Under the pieces are notes generated by a model, which worked only from the letters and a program-made list of their open reading frames with translations, had not been told where the DNA came from and did not search any database. A stretch of DNA of 32,580 nt from Treponema sp. (GTDB taxonomy: Bacteria > Spirochaetota > Spirochaetia > Treponematales > Breznakiellaceae), in contig JAAYUZ010000194.1 of the NCBI GenBank assembly GCA_012517385.1, forward strand, positions 1-32,580, in the 5' to 3' direction. Both the position numbers and the translations under genes were made by a program. This document shows positions 13,842 to 30,567 of this stretch, piece after piece. Position 1 is the stretch's first letter, and every line of letters begins with the position of its first letter.

Positions 13842-14198
13842 ATGGATAAAGAATTCGTTGAAAAAATGAAACAATCCTTGATCGATCTCAAGAAGGAGAT
13901 CATCACCAACCTGGTTGCAGGCAATGAGGATTTCAAACAGATTGTAGAAGAAATGGATCCTAAGGACTTTGCCGATATTGCCTCCGATGATATCGATCGC
14001 AAGATGATTGAGGCGATTGGGACCCAGGATGTTAAGCGGCTTAAGGCTATAGATAATGCCCTGAGCCGGATACAGCAGGGGAAATACGGCTTATGTGTGA
14101 AATGTGGTAAAAAAATTCCCCAGGACCGACTGGAAGCAATTCCCTATGCATTGATGTGCATAGAGTGCAAGACTGAAGAAGAGAGGCGTAACCGTTAA
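13842..14198 (+). CDS. DksA/TraR-type zinc-finger protein
   Basis: 118 residues. A helical N-terminal half suggests a coiled coil, and DPKDFADIASDDIDRK near 39-54 holds the acidic positions seen near the coil tip of DksA-type proteins. The zinc finger has C85, C88, C106 and C109 (GLCVKCGKKI, LMCIECK). RLKAIDNALSRIQQGKYG just before the finger is classic for this family. DksA-family proteins bind the secondary channel of RNA polymerase and tune transcription, often with ppGpp. A strong ribosome-binding site (AAGGGGGG) precedes the ATG. Whether this is functional DksA or a shorter TraR/YocK-like regulator cannot be settled from sequence alone. Confidence 0.92.
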   Translation: MDKEFVEKMKQSLIDLKKEIITNLVAGNEDFKQIVEEMDPKDFADIASDDIDRKMIEAIGTQDVKRLKAIDNALSRIQQGKYGLCVKCGKKIPQDRLEAIPYALMCIECKTEEERRNR

Positions 14199-14200
14199 GG

Positions 14201-14226
14201 CGTTATCGCTAAGTCGTTATCGCTAA
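14201..14226 (+). repeat. Two direct copies of CGTTATCGCTAA
   Basis: Perfect 12-base copies at 14201-14212 and 14215-14226 with a 14-base period, starting two bases after the stop of the dksA-like gene. They probably arose by a local duplication. Confidence 0.85.
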
Positions 14227-24325: not shown

Positions 24326-27300
24326 TTATTTAATCAATATGAATTCTACTCTCCGGTTCTTCCACCAGTTATCCCGGTCTTCATATTTTACCACTGGCCT
24401 GGTACCGCCCATGCCGACATAGGTTAAGCGGTTCTTGTCGACCCCAAACTCGATGAGTTTATCCACAATAGCCTTAGCCCGGGCTTCGCTTAAGGGTTGG
24501 AGTTCCTCCGTTTCTTCCTTTGCAGTCCGTGTAACCGGGTTCGCATGGCCCTCTACCTTAACCTTATACTCCTTAAATTTATTCAAGATTTCCGCAATCC
24601 GTTTTAACACCCGCAGGTTATTATCAACCTTATCTTGTGGCAGGGTATTAAAGTCTGCGCCATTTTCACGGAATATAATGGACGGAACCTTAATCTTTAG
24701 GACATCCCCTTCCCGGATTACGAGCACATCCACCCCGATGGTGGCAGAGCTGCTGCTGCTGTTACCAAGGGTGTCGGTGGCCTGGATCTGGACGGGGTAG
24801 TCAGTGGCGGCCTGTACAAGCTCTCCCTTATTACTCCTTCCATCCCAGGTGTATTTAGCAGAGGGTGTCCCCTTACCTTCGATCCGATAGAAAAGCTGTT
24901 TCGGTCCCTCCGGTTCACGGATTTCCAGGGACCATGAAGCTATGGGGGAAGCATCCTGAACATTGATGTTCATAGTAAGTTCATCATCAACACCATCGTT
25001 GTCGGGACTAAAGTACTGAGGAGTAGCGGAGAAACTCAGTTTCGGTCCCGTAATATCCACGAGTATCCCTGGGATGCTTTGATCTATGACATCACCCTTG
25101 GTATAGAGCACCTGGAGCCGGGCTGTATAGGTGCCTTCTACAACCTGGCCGGCATCGTTTTTGCCATCCCACATAAGGGTCTCCGGGGGTGTTGATTTCC
25201 CGGACCCGAGGGTTCGATTGACAGCACCTGCAGCTCCCACCAGTTCCAGTTTCCAGGAGTCTATACCGTCCCTGGGATTCAATATGACAGAGAAGGTGGT
25301 CGTATCGAACTTACCGTCCCCGTTAGGGGAGAGTCCTGTGGCAGAGGCAGTAAAGAATGCCCGGGGAACGCGGGCATCCACCGTTATGGGTTCCAGGGTT
25401 TTACTGGTCTTGTTGCCCGCCTCATCGGTGGAGCTTACGGTAAACCGGTAATTGCCGTCTGCAACCTGGTTACCCGCACTATCGGTGCCGTTCCAGCGGA
25501 TATCCGGGGCTGAACCCTTCCATTCCCAGCTTATCAATGTTTTTCCCGTCATATCGATGATCTCAGCCTTCCAGCTGTCTTCCCCTGGGGTTTTAATATC
25601 CACCGGGAGGAAATCCTTCTTACCATCCTGATTCGGTGAGAACAGGGTATAGGGCGCAGAAAGGCTCAGTTCAGGCGCAACCGTATCTACCACAAAGGTC
25701 TGGGATGTGGCTATTGGATTGTTCCCATTGATATATTTAATATCCGCCCGACCTGTATACTGTCCATCGGGCACCACCGTTCCGGCATCGCTCCTGCCGT
25801 TCCATGAAATGCTTTCGGGTGTCTTACCCCGGCCTTCGAAGCTGCGAACGCTTTTTTGTGCCCCGTCAAAAATTTCTACCTTCCAGGTCTGGATGCCATC
25901 CTTAACCTGAAGCTGAGGCAGCAGAGTAACAGTATCCTTGACTCCGTCTCCGTTGGGCGAGAAGGCCCGGAGGTCCGTGCTGAGGAGTACCGGTGTATCG
26001 GCGGTGCTTAGGGTAATACGTACCGAGTTGGAATAACCCGTGTTTCCTGCTCTGTCGGTGGAGACCAGTCGGTATTCATAGTCCCCGTCGCTGGCAAGCC
26101 GGCCAGAATCGTCCCGGCCGTCCCAAACCAGCCGCTTGTCTGGCTGGCCCGCAAAACTAAAGGATTTTATAAGCACTCCGCTGCCTTCTTTATAAGCCTG
26201 GCCTTCGCCTGTTACCCTGCGGATTTCGCCCTTCCAGCTTTGCTCTGTAGTTCCTTCCTGGATAAAGACCATGGTATCCTGTTTGCCATCGTTGTTGGGC
26301 GAAAAGGCGGGGTATTCAGTCTGTACCGCACCGGAAGGGGGTGTGATGTCCATGATAAAGGTCGGAGAAAGGGTGGTGGCCACATGGCCGTTCTGATAGG
26401 TAACGGAAAGTTCTGCCTGGTATGTTCCCTCCGCAATCAGGTCTCCCTGGTCATTTTTACCATCAAAATCGGTCTGGGGCGGTACGGACTGTTTTCCTGT
26501 ATAGGTCCGGACCACAGAACCGGACTGGTTTTTCACCGTGATTTTCCAATCGACAATACCTTCTTTTACCGGGACCCCGGGGCTGAGCCTCAGGGTATCC
26601 TTAATCGCATCCCCATTGGGAGAGAAGTAGCTATCTCCGATAAGGAGACTCACCGTGGGCTGTAAGGTGTTTACGATGATGTTGTCCAGTTTCGTATTTC
26701 CCGAGTTCTGGGCCCTATCGGTGGCACTGATCTGATATGAGTAAACCCCATCGGGGACTATGGCTCCCGTATCGTTTTTACCGTCCCAAATAATGGGTTT
26801 CGGTTCATCCTTTGTCACATTAAAGGACCGGATCTTTGTCCCCGCAGCAGTGTAAATCCCCGCATCCCAGAGATCTTCCCTGGAACCCTTCTGAACTATT
26901 TCAAAGGTATCTTTGTTGCCGTCCCCATCGGGGGAGAAGATCATCAGTTTTGTAAGGTCCGCTGAGTCGCCGGCAGCGGTAATTTCTACCGCCGGGGGTG
27001 TATTATCTACAATTACCTCATAACGGGGTGATGTGGCGGTGTTTCCATTATCATCGGCTGCGGAGAGGGTAAAGAAATAGCTCCCGTCAGGTGCTACCTG
27101 CCCCGATTCCAGAACGCCATCCCAGCGGAGGGTTTCGGGAACCGCTACCCCGGATTTTACATCCAGAAGCCGGTCCAGTACATTCCGGAAGCCCTGGGTT
27201 TCGGGACGCCGCTCCTTGTTGCGGTAGGTCCTGACCAGGTTGTTCTGGCTGTCAAAAATTTCCAGCTTCCACCAGTCCACATATCGCTGATCGGTTATGC

Positions 27301-28348
27301 TGACAGGAAATTCCAGGGCATCCGCCTTGCCATCGTTATTTGGTGAAATATAGCGGGTCCCAGGATAGTCTACGGTGATAACCGGCGGCTTTTTATCCGC
27401 CACACCCATGGTCCAGGATGCACCGGTTCCAATGGCCCATATATCATTATAAAGGGGCTTAGCCGCCAGGGTTGCCCCAATGTCACCCTGCTGGTTTTTA
27501 CCAGTTCCCTGCAGGACAAAGTTGGCAGTAATGCCCACCGAGGGAATCCCTGAAACGTGTTTACCCAGCAGGGCTTCTTCTATGTTAAGGCCGGTAGAGG
27601 CAGAAACGGTTATCAGCTGTGCTATGGTTGCATTAAGTCCCAGCTTCCAGGTCAGGTTCATAAAGCCCGGTAAAGCCAGGTCTGTGGCAAGCCCCAGCCT
27701 GAGCGGGTCCGGTTTTCCATCCTTGCCTGGGATACGGAGGTAATCGAAGGAGACGCCCCCCGCAAGGGTAAAGGGGGAGGGGATGAAACTTTTGCCAAGC
27801 CCTCCAAACACGACTGCCCAGGTAAAATCATCAAGGATAAGGAGTTTTCCCATATTATACCGGAAACCCAGATCCAGTGCGGCGGTCCAGTCGGTGCCAA
27901 ATCCAAAGTTCAGTCCAGTCCCGACGGTCATGCCGGGGTACAGTTCCTTGGCGACCCCCAGGTCAAGACCAAAGGTGGTCCCGATAGGAAAAGAATTAAA
28001 TGGACTCGAGAGAAGCCGCATGGAACCGGAAAAAACCGCATATTTAGTGGGATAGATGGCCCCCAAAGAAAGGGCGTGTCCAATTCCCGGTTCTGAACCA
28101 AGCCCGGTAAGGAGCAGATAGCCCGCATCCAGGACCGTTCTCTGTGCCTGGCCTGCACTGGCGGGATTGAGCGACTGGGCCGCAGAGGAGCCTGCAGAGG
28201 TTGTAAAAAGCCCAGCCCCTGCCGCCTGGGGTGAATAAAGATCCTGGGCGGTGTCGACACCGACGGTCTGGGCAAATAGGGGGAGTCCGCCCATCAACAT
28301 ACGTATCATCAAAAGAACTGAACATTTCAGCCGGGGGGATAGGTGCAT
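24326..28348 (-). CDS. Large modular envelope protein: beta-barrel-like N-terminus, eight SPNxDG modules, OmpA-like C-terminus
   Basis: 1340 residues from the ATG at 28348 (GGAGG five bases upstream). An in-frame ATG at 28360 is an alternative start. A signal peptide ends near LPLFAQ. Residues to about 320 are glycine-rich alternating strands (NFGFGTDWTAALDLGFRYNM), like PorV/UPF0164-type outer-membrane proteins. From about 335 to 1190, eight modules of roughly 100-115 residues each open with SPNxDGxxD and contain WDGKNDxGxxVxDGxY, as in FlgD-type Ig-like repeats. The last 120 residues are OmpA-like (VEGHANPV, LSEARAKAIVDKL, YVGMGGTRPV) and should bind peptidoglycan. It probably links the outer membrane and wall. 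The function is not known. Confidence 0.88.
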   Translation of the reverse strand: MHLSPRLKCSVLLMIRMLMGGLPLFAQTVGVDTAQDLYSPQAAGAGLFTTSAGSSAAQSLNPASAGQAQRTVLDAGYLLLTGLGSEPGIGHALSLGAIYPTKYAVFSGSMRLLSSPFNSFPIGTTFGLDLGVAKELYPGMTVGTGLNFGFGTDWTAALDLGFRYNMGKLLILDDFTWAVVFGGLGKSFIPSPFTLAGGVSFDYLRIPGKDGKPDPLRLGLATDLALPGFMNLTWKLGLNATIAQLITVSASTGLNIEEALLGKHVSGIPSVGITANFVLQGTGKNQQGDIGATLAAKPLYNDIWAIGTGASWTMGVADKKPPVITVDYPGTRYISPNNDGKADALEFPVSITDQRYVDWWKLEIFDSQNNLVRTYRNKERRPETQGFRNVLDRLLDVKSGVAVPETLRWDGVLESGQVAPDGSYFFTLSAADDNGNTATSPRYEVIVDNTPPAVEITAAGDSADLTKLMIFSPDGDGNKDTFEIVQKGSREDLWDAGIYTAAGTKIRSFNVTKDEPKPIIWDGKNDTGAIVPDGVYSYQISATDRAQNSGNTKLDNIIVNTLQPTVSLLIGDSYFSPNGDAIKDTLRLSPGVPVKEGIVDWKITVKNQSGSVVRTYTGKQSVPPQTDFDGKNDQGDLIAEGTYQAELSVTYQNGHVATTLSPTFIMDITPPSGAVQTEYPAFSPNNDGKQDTMVFIQEGTTEQSWKGEIRRVTGEGQAYKEGSGVLIKSFSFAGQPDKRLVWDGRDDSGRLASDGDYEYRLVSTDRAGNTGYSNSVRITLSTADTPVLLSTDLRAFSPNGDGVKDTVTLLPQLQVKDGIQTWKVEIFDGAQKSVRSFEGRGKTPESISWNGRSDAGTVVPDGQYTGRADIKYINGNNPIATSQTFVVDTVAPELSLSAPYTLFSPNQDGKKDFLPVDIKTPGEDSWKAEIIDMTGKTLISWEWKGSAPDIRWNGTDSAGNQVADGNYRFTVSSTDEAGNKTSKTLEPITVDARVPRAFFTASATGLSPNGDGKFDTTTFSVILNPRDGIDSWKLELVGAAGAVNRTLGSGKSTPPETLMWDGKNDAGQVVEGTYTARLQVLYTKGDVIDQSIPGILVDITGPKLSFSATPQYFSPDNDGVDDELTMNINVQDASPIASWSLEIREPEGPKQLFYRIEGKGTPSAKYTWDGRSNKGELVQAATDYPVQIQATDTLGNSSSSSATIGVDVLVIREGDVLKIKVPSIIFRENGADFNTLPQDKVDNNLRVLKRIAEILNKFKEYKVKVEGHANPVTRTAKEETEELQPLSEARAKAIVDKLIEFGVDKNRLTYVGMGGTRPVVKYEDRDNWWKNRRVEFILIK

Positions 28349-28367
28349 GTATACCTCCATACTACTT

Positions 28368-28376: not shown

Positions 28377-28430
28377 ATCGGTCATGGTAGTCCGATACAA
28401 AAGGCCAAACAATTATAATATATCAGTATG

Positions 28431-28439
28431 TGGTATACT
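28431..28439 (+). promoter_or_regulatory. Predicted extended -10 promoter of ogt, leaderless type
   Basis: TGG followed by TATACT (28434-28439), with six bases to the ATG at 28446. No Shine-Dalgarno sequence and no clear -35 are visible. It is divergent from the promoter of the modular envelope protein. Confidence 0.6.
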
Positions 28440-28445
28440 AAACCT

Positions 28446-28919
28446 ATGAGAAAAGAAACATTTCTGAATAGTCCTCTGGGACTGCTTAAGATTGTGTATA
28501 ACGAATCTGCTCTGGAAGAAATCCTGTTTTTAGATCAGGTTGATGAAGTGAGGGCCGGTTCTGTGGCAGACCTGCCGCCATTTGTGGGGCAGCTTGCGGC
28601 CGAATTAGAGGCCTATTTTAATGGAAAGCTGCAAACCTTTTCTGTTCCTATCAATCTGGATCGAGGTACCGACTTTCAGCGCCGGGTTTGGCAGGCCCTG
28701 CTCGCCATCCCCTATGGCAAGACAGTTACCTATGGGGAACTAGCCCGCTCGCTCGGCCTTTCCGCTGGGGCAAGCCGGGCGGTCGGCAATGCCTGCGGGG
28801 CGAACCCCCTTCCCATTATCGTTCCCTGTCACCGGGTTGTGGCTGCCAACGGGAGCCTTGGGGGATATTCAGGGGGCCTCTGGCGCAAAGAAGGGCTGCT
28901 AAAAGTAGAAAGGCAGTAA
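28446..28919 (+). CDS. ogt: Methylated-DNA--protein-cysteine S-methyltransferase
   Basis: 157 residues. It repairs O6-alkylguanine by moving the alkyl group onto its own cysteine, C128 in the invariant PCHRV motif. Supporting blocks are FQRRVWQALLAIPYGKTVTY, the helix-turn-helix LARSLGLSAGASRAVGNACG, and GGYSGGLWRKEGLL at the end. The start at 28446 is preferred over the ATG at 28428, because the latter lies upstream of the -10 box. The shorter start gives the usual length of the Ogt class with a small N-terminal domain. The stop and following A-run serve as the T-tract of the converging gcv terminator. Confidence 0.95.
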   Translation: MRKETFLNSPLGLLKIVYNESALEEILFLDQVDEVRAGSVADLPPFVGQLAAELEAYFNGKLQTFSVPINLDRGTDFQRRVWQALLAIPYGKTVTYGELARSLGLSAGASRAVGNACGANPLPIIVPCHRVVAANGSLGGYSGGLWRKEGLLKVERQ

Positions 28920-28947
28920 AAAGGGGCTCTCTGCTGCAGAGAGCCCC
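28918..28947 (-). terminator. Rho-independent terminator of the gcv operon
   Basis: GGGGCTCTCTG (28923-28933) and CAGAGAGCCCC (28937-28947) form a perfect 11-base stem with a 3-base loop. On the minus strand TTTTT (complement of 28918-28922) follows. It terminates the gcv transcript after about 165 bases of 3' untranslated RNA that contain the hairpin array. Confidence 0.85.
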
Positions 28948-28959
28948 AAACAGGCAGTT

Positions 28960-29099
28960 GGTCAACAACGCCGGTCAACAACGCTGACGGCAACATCGCC
29001 GTCGATCAGCGACACCGCCTGGCAACATCGCCAGCCGGCAATAAAACCGTCGGTCAACTTCGCCGGCCGTCAACAACGCCGACGGCAACATCGCTGGCC
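28960..29099. repeat. Array of about eight 13-32 base hairpin-forming units
   Basis: Units start GGTCAAC or GGCAAC and end in CGCC or similar, mostly 13-17 bases long (28960, 28973, 28989, 29021, 29037, 29052, 29069, 29084). Several fold into small stems: GACGGC-AACATC-GCCGTC (28986-29003), CTGGC-AACATC-GCCAG (29019-29034) and GCCGTC-AACAACGCC-GACGGC (29066-29086). The loops stay the same while the stems change in step. The array lies wholly between ogt and gcvPB, inside the predicted 3' untranslated part of the gcv mRNA. Confidence 0.8.
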
Positions 29100-29115
29100 C
29101 GGGTCTACCCCTTAA

Positions 29116-30567
29116 CTACCCCTTATAGCAGAGCACGGGTTTTCGGGCCGCGGTTGTTTCGTCGAGCCGGCCCACGGGGGTGTGGTGGGGGGCCGATTTC
29201 ACGAGCTCCGGATTATTCTGGGCTTCTTCGGCGATGGCGAGCAGAGCCTGAGCAAAGGCTTCCAGGGTTTCCGGGTTTTCGGTTTCCGTGGGTTCCACCA
29301 TAAGGGCTTCCTTAACAATGAGGGGGAAGTAAATGGTTGGCGGATGGAACCCATAATCGATGAGCCGTTTGGCAATATCCAGGGTGTGGATCCCATTGGC
29401 CAGTTCCGGGGATGCCACAAATTCGTGCATATTCCACCGGCCTGCTCCATACACCGCAGGATAGTGTTCCTGTACAAGGCTCCTCAGATAGTTGGCATTA
29501 AGGACCGAGTATTCGGCTACCCTGCGCAGGCCATCGGCCCCGAGGCGTCTGATATAGGCATAGGCCCGGACCAGTACGGCAAAGTTGCCGTAAAAGGCCT
29601 TAACCCTGCCAATGGAGCGGGAAGGCATTCGGAAGCTATAGCCTTCGGAGGTTTTTGCAGCCACCGGTCCGGGGAGAAATTCTGCCAGTTCAGCCGAAAC
29701 GCCCACCGCACCAGCACCAGGACCGCCCCCACCATGGGGAGTCGAGAAGGTCTTGTGCAGGTTCAGGTGCATCACATCAAATCCTAGATCTGCGGGTTTT
29801 ACAATGCCCACCAGGGCATTCATGTTAGCTCCGTCACCATACACGAGGCCGCCAGCCCGATGTACTATGGAAATAATCTCCTTTATATTCCGTTCAAAAA
29901 GGCCCAGGGTACTGGGATTGGTTATCATGAGTCCCGCTACCGTTCTGGCATTTTCTCCGGAACAGGCAGCCCGCAGGGCTTCCAGGTCTACCCCTCCGGA
30001 TGAATCGGAAGGGATAGTTTCCGCCACGAGGCCTGCCATGGTACAGCTTGCGGGGTTTGTGCCATGGGCAGAGTCGGGAATGAGTATCCGTGTGCGGTTC
30101 GTTTCCCCCCGGCTTGTATGCCAGGCTCGGATAACCAGAACCCCCGTAAGCTCCCCATGGGCTCCCGCCGCGGGCTGGAGACTGACGGCCTTAAAGCCCG
30201 TGATTTCCTGCAACGCAGCCTGCAGTTCGTAGATAAGAGCCAGGGAGCCCTGGGATAAGGATTCCGGGGCCAGCGGATGGGCCCGGCGGAACCCTCCGTA
30301 GGAAGCGGCCTCTTCGTTCATCTTGGGATTATACTTCATGGTACAGGACCCCAGGGGATAGAATTGACCGTCTATCGAAAAATTAAGATGGGAAAGCCGG
30401 GTAAAGTGGCGGACCACCGAGAGCTCATCCAGTTCGGGGAGTTTTGGCGGCTCCCTGAGGAGGTCCCCGGGGAGGGCCGTTTCAGGGACTGAAGGTTCAG
30501 GCAGCTGTACCGCCCGCCGTCCGGGCATACTTTCTTCCTGCAAAAGGGGAACCAGGGTTTGCATCAT
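29116..30567 (-). CDS. gcvPB: Glycine dehydrogenase (decarboxylating) subunit 2
   Basis: 483 residues, the C-terminal half of the split P-protein of the glycine cleavage system. The PLP lysine is K272 in NLHKTFSTPHGGGGPG. Other marks are PLGSCTMKYNPKMNE near 71-85, the glycine-contact AHGTNPASCTMAG and DGANMNAL. With subunit 1 it decarboxylates glycine and passes the aminomethyl group to lipoyl-GcvH. The start overlaps the gcvPA stop (ATGATG) and has GGAGG upstream. It is the last gene of the operon. Confidence 0.97.
   Translation of the reverse strand: MMQTLVPLLQEESMPGRRAVQLPEPSVPETALPGDLLREPPKLPELDELSVVRHFTRLSHLNFSIDGQFYPLGSCTMKYNPKMNEEAASYGGFRRAHPLAPESLSQGSLALIYELQAALQEITGFKAVSLQPAAGAHGELTGVLVIRAWHTSRGETNRTRILIPDSAHGTNPASCTMAGLVAETIPSDSSGGVDLEALRAACSGENARTVAGLMITNPSTLGLFERNIKEIISIVHRAGGLVYGDGANMNALVGIVKPADLGFDVMHLNLHKTFSTPHGGGGPGAGAVGVSAELAEFLPGPVAAKTSEGYSFRMPSRSIGRVKAFYGNFAVLVRAYAYIRRLGADGLRRVAEYSVLNANYLRSLVQEHYPAVYGAGRWNMHEFVASPELANGIHTLDIAKRLIDYGFHPPTIYFPLIVKEALMVEPTETENPETLEAFAQALLAIAEEAQNNPELVKSAPHHTPVGRLDETTAARKPVLCYKG

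Follow-up and report, generated by a model that had tools for sequence, protein, structure and literature searches.

A tandem array of short quasi-palindromic units in the gcvPB/ogt gap of a Treponema genome

REPs, palindromes of 20-40 bp, carry a terminal GTAG or CGTC tag and occur as many dispersed copies (PMC3733652), and the palindromic elements of Rickettsia are about 150 bp long (PMC10969869). In the open-access literature, we found no paper on repeats of the kind described here in treponemes, and none on the hairpin arrays of their family described below. Here we analysed an array of short hairpin-like units located at positions 28960-29099 of the window, by which we mean the whole stretch of 32,580 nt of Treponema sp. 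DNA under analysis, which corresponds to contig C114 in a draft genome of 2.97 Mb (G000). We consider it probable that the gap between the convergent gcvPB and ogt was filled by a tandem array that is young and restricted to this lineage, with short units that are GC-rich and quasi-palindromic; this most likely happened after the split from the congeners.

The gap is delimited by ogt, encoding a methylated-DNA--protein-cysteine methyltransferase (28428-28919, plus strand; TIGR00589, 5e-32), and by the convergent gcvPB, encoding an aminomethyl-transferring glycine dehydrogenase subunit (29116-30567, minus strand; NF003346, 8e-210). The array sits between the stop of gcvPB at 29116 and the intrinsic terminator of the gcv operon on the minus strand (28923-28947, with an 11-bp stem and a T tail on that strand), hence it would be transcribed. 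Precisely, it is part of the predicted gcv 3' UTR, and the gcv transcript should cross it before ending; the original prediction had placed the array there, and the position of the minus-strand terminator bears this out. Right beside the array, the 3' end of gcvPB, stop codon included, carries an 11-base tandem duplication (CTACCCCTTAA / TTAAGGGGTAG, 29105-29125, found by a TRF-type tandem repeat search) that resembles a slippage-like scar.

Two further features of the window were recorded. The minus strand encodes at 24326-28360 a protein of 1344 aa that combines FlgD-like repeats with an OmpA domain at its C-terminus and is related to proteins of the Lsa66 type; its start region adjoins ogt also in the congeners G002 and G003. 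At 14184-14226 there is another tandem repeat, with a 14-base unit (AGGCGTTATCGCTA, 3.1 copies), just ahead of the end of a minus-strand gene and adjoining a hairpin of 12-13 bp; the layout resembles that of the gcv/ogt gap, whereas the sequence differs.

On the basis of TRF, of a core pattern and of a direct reading of the units, the array consists of about eight degenerate units of 13-16 bases with core CAACWWCGCY, that is CAAC(A/T)(A/T)CGC(C/T), one of the units being degenerate with respect to this core. The eight cores, at 28964-29092, read AACAAC, AACAAC, AACATC, AACATC, AATAAA, AACTTC, AACAAC and AACATC, with spacings of 13, 15, 32, 16, 16, 16 and 15 along the array. A pattern of two consecutive cores matched six times in the array and had no further match in the genome (2.97 Mb), and its reversed control did not match at all, so the repetition is not due to chance. 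The presence of about eight units of mostly 13-17 bases, as originally predicted, is thus confirmed by the eight cores. A short unit repeated head to tail at one locus qualifies the array as a tandem repeat (minisatellite).

TRF reported an exact 13-base tandem duplication at 28960-28984 of the plus strand (GGTCAACAACGCC, 100% match, 1.9 copies), which we regard as recent, and a degenerate 16-base array at 29023-29099. Moreover, the 31-base segment at 28969-28999 (plus strand) occurs again 95 bases on, at 29064-29094, with 90% identity, as a higher-order duplication within the array (our repeat family D3). Both the exact 13-base copy and this internal repeat count in favour of a young tandem array.

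Genome-wide statements on G000 rest on pattern, BLAST and model searches. By BLAST there was no second copy of the array in the genome, the best other match having E=0.2. The unit pattern, searched with at most one mismatch, occurred genome-wide at control frequency (16 matches against 15 for the control), and a covariance model search of G000 gave no hit. Unit matches on contigs C74, C153 and C84 were rejected as further arrays, being isolated single matches with no array around them, and a BLAST of the array region against plasmids gave no match. These searches place the array at a single locus and rule out a dispersed family within this genome.

Three congeners were compared at the same site. 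In G002 and G003 ogt and gcvPB meet tail to tail, with the stop of ogt falling within the final codons of gcvPB and no gap left (as read from the sequences), and in G001, a complete genome of 3,239,340 bp, other DNA is found at the gcvPB/ogt site; the array is absent from all three. Judged from these sequences, this species is the only one of those compared to have the array and its gap, and a loss from the congeners, instead of a gain in this species, could also account for this. The single locus, the absence from the congeners and the recent exact 13-base copy argue for a lineage-specific local tandem repeat and not for a dispersed REP-like family. The suggestion that the units are miniature repetitive extragenic palindromes, forming a family within this genome, was therefore abandoned, as neither a second array nor a BLAST copy was found. 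The opposite case considered in the original prediction, a local tandem duplication lacking other copies and missing from relatives, describes well the situation in the genome and in the genus, but not in the wider family, since related arrays exist in other genera.

We propose that a seed unit, which probably belonged to the same type as the tandem hairpins of other genera described below, expanded by replication slippage in a gap free of coding constraint, with hairpins on single-stranded DNA aiding the duplication, and that the array is now degenerating; we infer both the growth by slippage or hairpin-assisted duplication and the current decay. In the RNA, the units would form Watson-Crick and G.U pairs with one another, giving the 3' UTR a single compact structure, which would follow from the palindromic units.

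The array had also been described as a series of hairpins with a constant AACATC or AACAAC loop and stems changing jointly by compensation, and this part was not supported. In a search for hairpins with stems of at least 5 bp, we found only three perfect ones with at least five pairs, all read on the plus strand and with stems of 5-6 bp: GACGGC-AACATC-GCCGTC (28986-29003), CTGGC-AACATC-GCCAG (29019-29034) and GCCGTC-AACAACGCC-GACGGC (29066-29086), the last one with a 9-base loop. Hairpin counts are modestly above those of dinucleotide shuffles, with two stems of at least 6 bp against 0.22 (P=0.024) and three of at least 5 bp against 0.80 (P=0.056). When the eight right arms were re-paired in all 40,320 possible ways, the mean was 27.4 pairs, and the actual pairing gives 29 (P=0.24), which is no significant evidence of compensating change within this single array. 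The arms pair with their own partners no better than with those of other units, and the 'covarying' stems therefore mostly reflect a small vocabulary (GGC, GCC, GTC, GAC) common to all the units.

Outside the genus, two hits were obtained when 200 genomes of the family were searched with the array by BLAST, and one of them (L250) was dismissed, lying inside clpX. The other one (L249, in genome G049, E=4e-6) lies in a convergent gene gap of another genus and aligns with 29056-29099 of the plus strand over 45 columns, with three units in register and a score of 51, against a maximum of 33 in 3000 shuffles. A control query, in which all but a few bases at the ends were reversed, matched nothing in these 200 genomes. 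With a model of the hairpin class described below, trained without G000 and G049, L249 reaches 32 bits (E=7e-5) and so scores as a member of that class; inspection by eye also showed candidate inverted repeats on its outer sides, TCTGTCCG/CGGACAGA.

A search begun from this lead revealed tandem hairpins of the type GYCAAC-NNN-GTTGRC, with a spacing of 15-18 bases, in several other genera. In this way the array led to a class of hairpins that are often carried by short elements with inverted repeats and in some cases lie within genes, in frame. In G109, G121 and G205 the hairpins lie within elements of about 80-100 bp with ends like GGGCAACGCTGATTAA / TCAGCGTTGCCC; precisely, L327:538-630 (in G121) and similar loci in G109, G205 and G107 have these ends in inverted orientation, enclosing two or three GCCAAC-NNN-GTTGGC hairpins. 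When one such element was used as a BLAST query, 15 of the 200 family genomes gave matches, many of them over the ends only. Five loci from several genera (L286, L288, L361, L363 and L364) carry CAAC-NNN-GTTG hairpin units of 15-18 bases inside open reading frames, and intergenic members of the class occur in convergent, divergent and co-directional gaps alike. An outer stem position covaries from C-G to U-A (score of 0.098 against 0.067 +/- 0.008 for shuffles, rows from the same genome not being independent), and one genome (G196) carries CAGC-AAA-GCTG versions. Tandem 15-18-base hairpins across genera are apparently unreported as a class.

The tie of the window array itself to this class is weak. 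A covariance model (R1) trained on other genera gave it 13.8 bits, which falls short of significance (E=0.08 when the window was searched, E=1.4 for 420 kb); its training loci had been found by window-derived patterns, so the score is partly circular as a proof of membership. Likewise, the best four R1 hits in the window all fall within the array, which had inspired the R1 search patterns. Pairwise alignments of the array with individual arrays from three other genera remained within the shuffle range, and no perfect GYCAAC-NNN-GTTGRC hairpin is present in the window array, the nearest ones, GTCAAC-AAC-GCTGAC and GGCAAC-ATC-GCTGGC, being imperfect. The link to the class through G049 is suggestive. 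We hold only tentatively, and as rather unlikely, that the window array and those of the other genera belong to one lineage of very small mobile palindromes, whose 15-18-base units would multiply in tandem, undergo compensating changes in the stems and settle across the family both between genes and in frame inside them.

An alternative origin is that a mobile hairpin-array element of the family, with terminal inverted repeats around GYCAAC-NNN-GTTGRC units, was inserted in the gap and then decayed with the loss of its ends. Intact elements do exist in several genera, and the closest match to the array, L249, likewise occupies a gap between convergent genes, shows candidate inverted repeats on its outer sides and is recognised by the model trained without it. 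Nevertheless, neither terminal inverted repeats nor a target duplication were seen around 28960-29099, no related element occurs elsewhere in the genome or in the genus, and the array has about eight units against the two or three of intact elements, so that we consider this origin unlikely. By its structure the array was also rejected as a MITE, with no terminal inverted repeat around it and no BLAST match in G000 of the element having such repeats.

The array could also be a functional 3' UTR element, in which selection would keep a compact RNA fold that slows 3'-5' exonucleases or binds a protein. The expected folding in the gcv RNA is indeed strong: in this single sequence, on which the evidence from folding is based, the minus-strand RNA of the array region has an MFE of -72.9 kcal/mol, against -56.6 +/- 3.4 for shuffles (z -4.7, 0/200), and in a scan of 676 windows one was equally stable and five had as low a z. 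The plus-strand RNA is weaker (z -2.6), and as single-stranded DNA the array folds with z -0.9 on the plus and -3.1 on the minus strand. Moreover, the plus-strand unit GGC-AACATC-GCC holds A.C mismatches that become G.U pairs on the transcribed gcv strand, and the site is transcribed upstream of the terminator. On the minus strand this unit reads GGCGAUGUUGCC and is self-complementary over all its 12 bases if G.U is allowed, so minus-strand units can also pair with one another. Tandem repeats of any self-complementary unit fold well anyway, hence the stable fold is no proof of selection.

Against a selected element there are also the absence of the array from all three congeners compared, the lack of covariation among its stems and the outcome of an Rfam 15 search, in which no family reached the gathering score; the minus strand at 28908-28998 gave a sub-threshold match to the suhB/mmgR sRNA (24.6 bits against a gathering score of 41), probably due to the terminator. 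We therefore regard selection for such an element as distinctly improbable. The array may stabilise the gcv message, but this would largely duplicate the action of the terminator; since the downstream terminator hairpin already protects the 3' end, any influence of the array on the decay of gcv mRNA is likely to be mild and a by-product.

The remnant of a coding tandem repeat, for instance a decayed linker rich in alanine, glycine and asparagine, would agree with the mostly coding nature of similar patterns elsewhere and with a coding 18-base repeat with similar words in the same genome, but the spacings (13, 15, 16 and 32) mostly are not multiples of three, no long frame crosses the array, which indicates that it is not coding, and the congeners have no matching coding repeat at the locus, making this origin extremely improbable. 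The coding repeat of the same genome (L319, on contig C27 at about 150-500) encodes ANTAGx-type hexapeptides with words like GGGCGAACATCGCC and sits near the C-terminal part of a long ORF. Homologous arrays across bacteria were sought with a three-core pattern in 84,980 genomes and in viral contigs, and the candidates were rejected: among the matches listed, they were mainly coding-type repeats with spacings multiple of three, and the remaining ones were simple minisatellites of 13-17 bases keeping one unit sequence.

Our preferred reading, a young local tandem repeat, can finally be set against the known systems. Taken alone, the array is a minor feature that would give the gcv mRNA a structured tail, and the class of tandem 15-18-base hairpins would be useful for studies on the spread of minimal palindromes and on the way in which their stems are kept. 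As with REPs and BIMEs, which are short GC-rich intergenic stem-loops, tolerant of G.U in the stems and sometimes clustered (PMC3733652), the array has short stem-loops between genes, but it occupies a single locus with 13-16-base units, stems of 5-6 bp and no constant tag; single copy, short stems and the lack of GTAG or CGTC rule out its assignment to them. The resemblance to the Rickettsia palindromic elements is that relatives of the array unit are found also in frame inside genes (L286, L288, L363 and L364), while the units of the family measure 15-18 bases and the window array is non-coding. With the hairpin arrays of the family it shares a spacing of about 15-18 bases, a CAAC-NNN-G(C/T)(C/T)G core and an often intergenic position, the copy in G049 acting as a bridge over three units; in intact elements the hairpins are instead perfect, two or three in number, and the ends are of the GGGCAACGCTGATTAA type, whereas the array has about eight degenerate units, GC-rich arms, no ends and a single copy. 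Ordinary bacterial minisatellites show the same direct tandem repetition of 13-16 bases, with exact copies of the slippage type, at a single locus and restricted to a lineage, and the array departs from them in its quasi-palindromic units, which lead to an unusually stable RNA fold. The array is thus a tandem repeat with palindromic units, and it looks like a mostly ordinary, young repeat, although related bacteria of the family carry clearer tandem hairpins of this sort.
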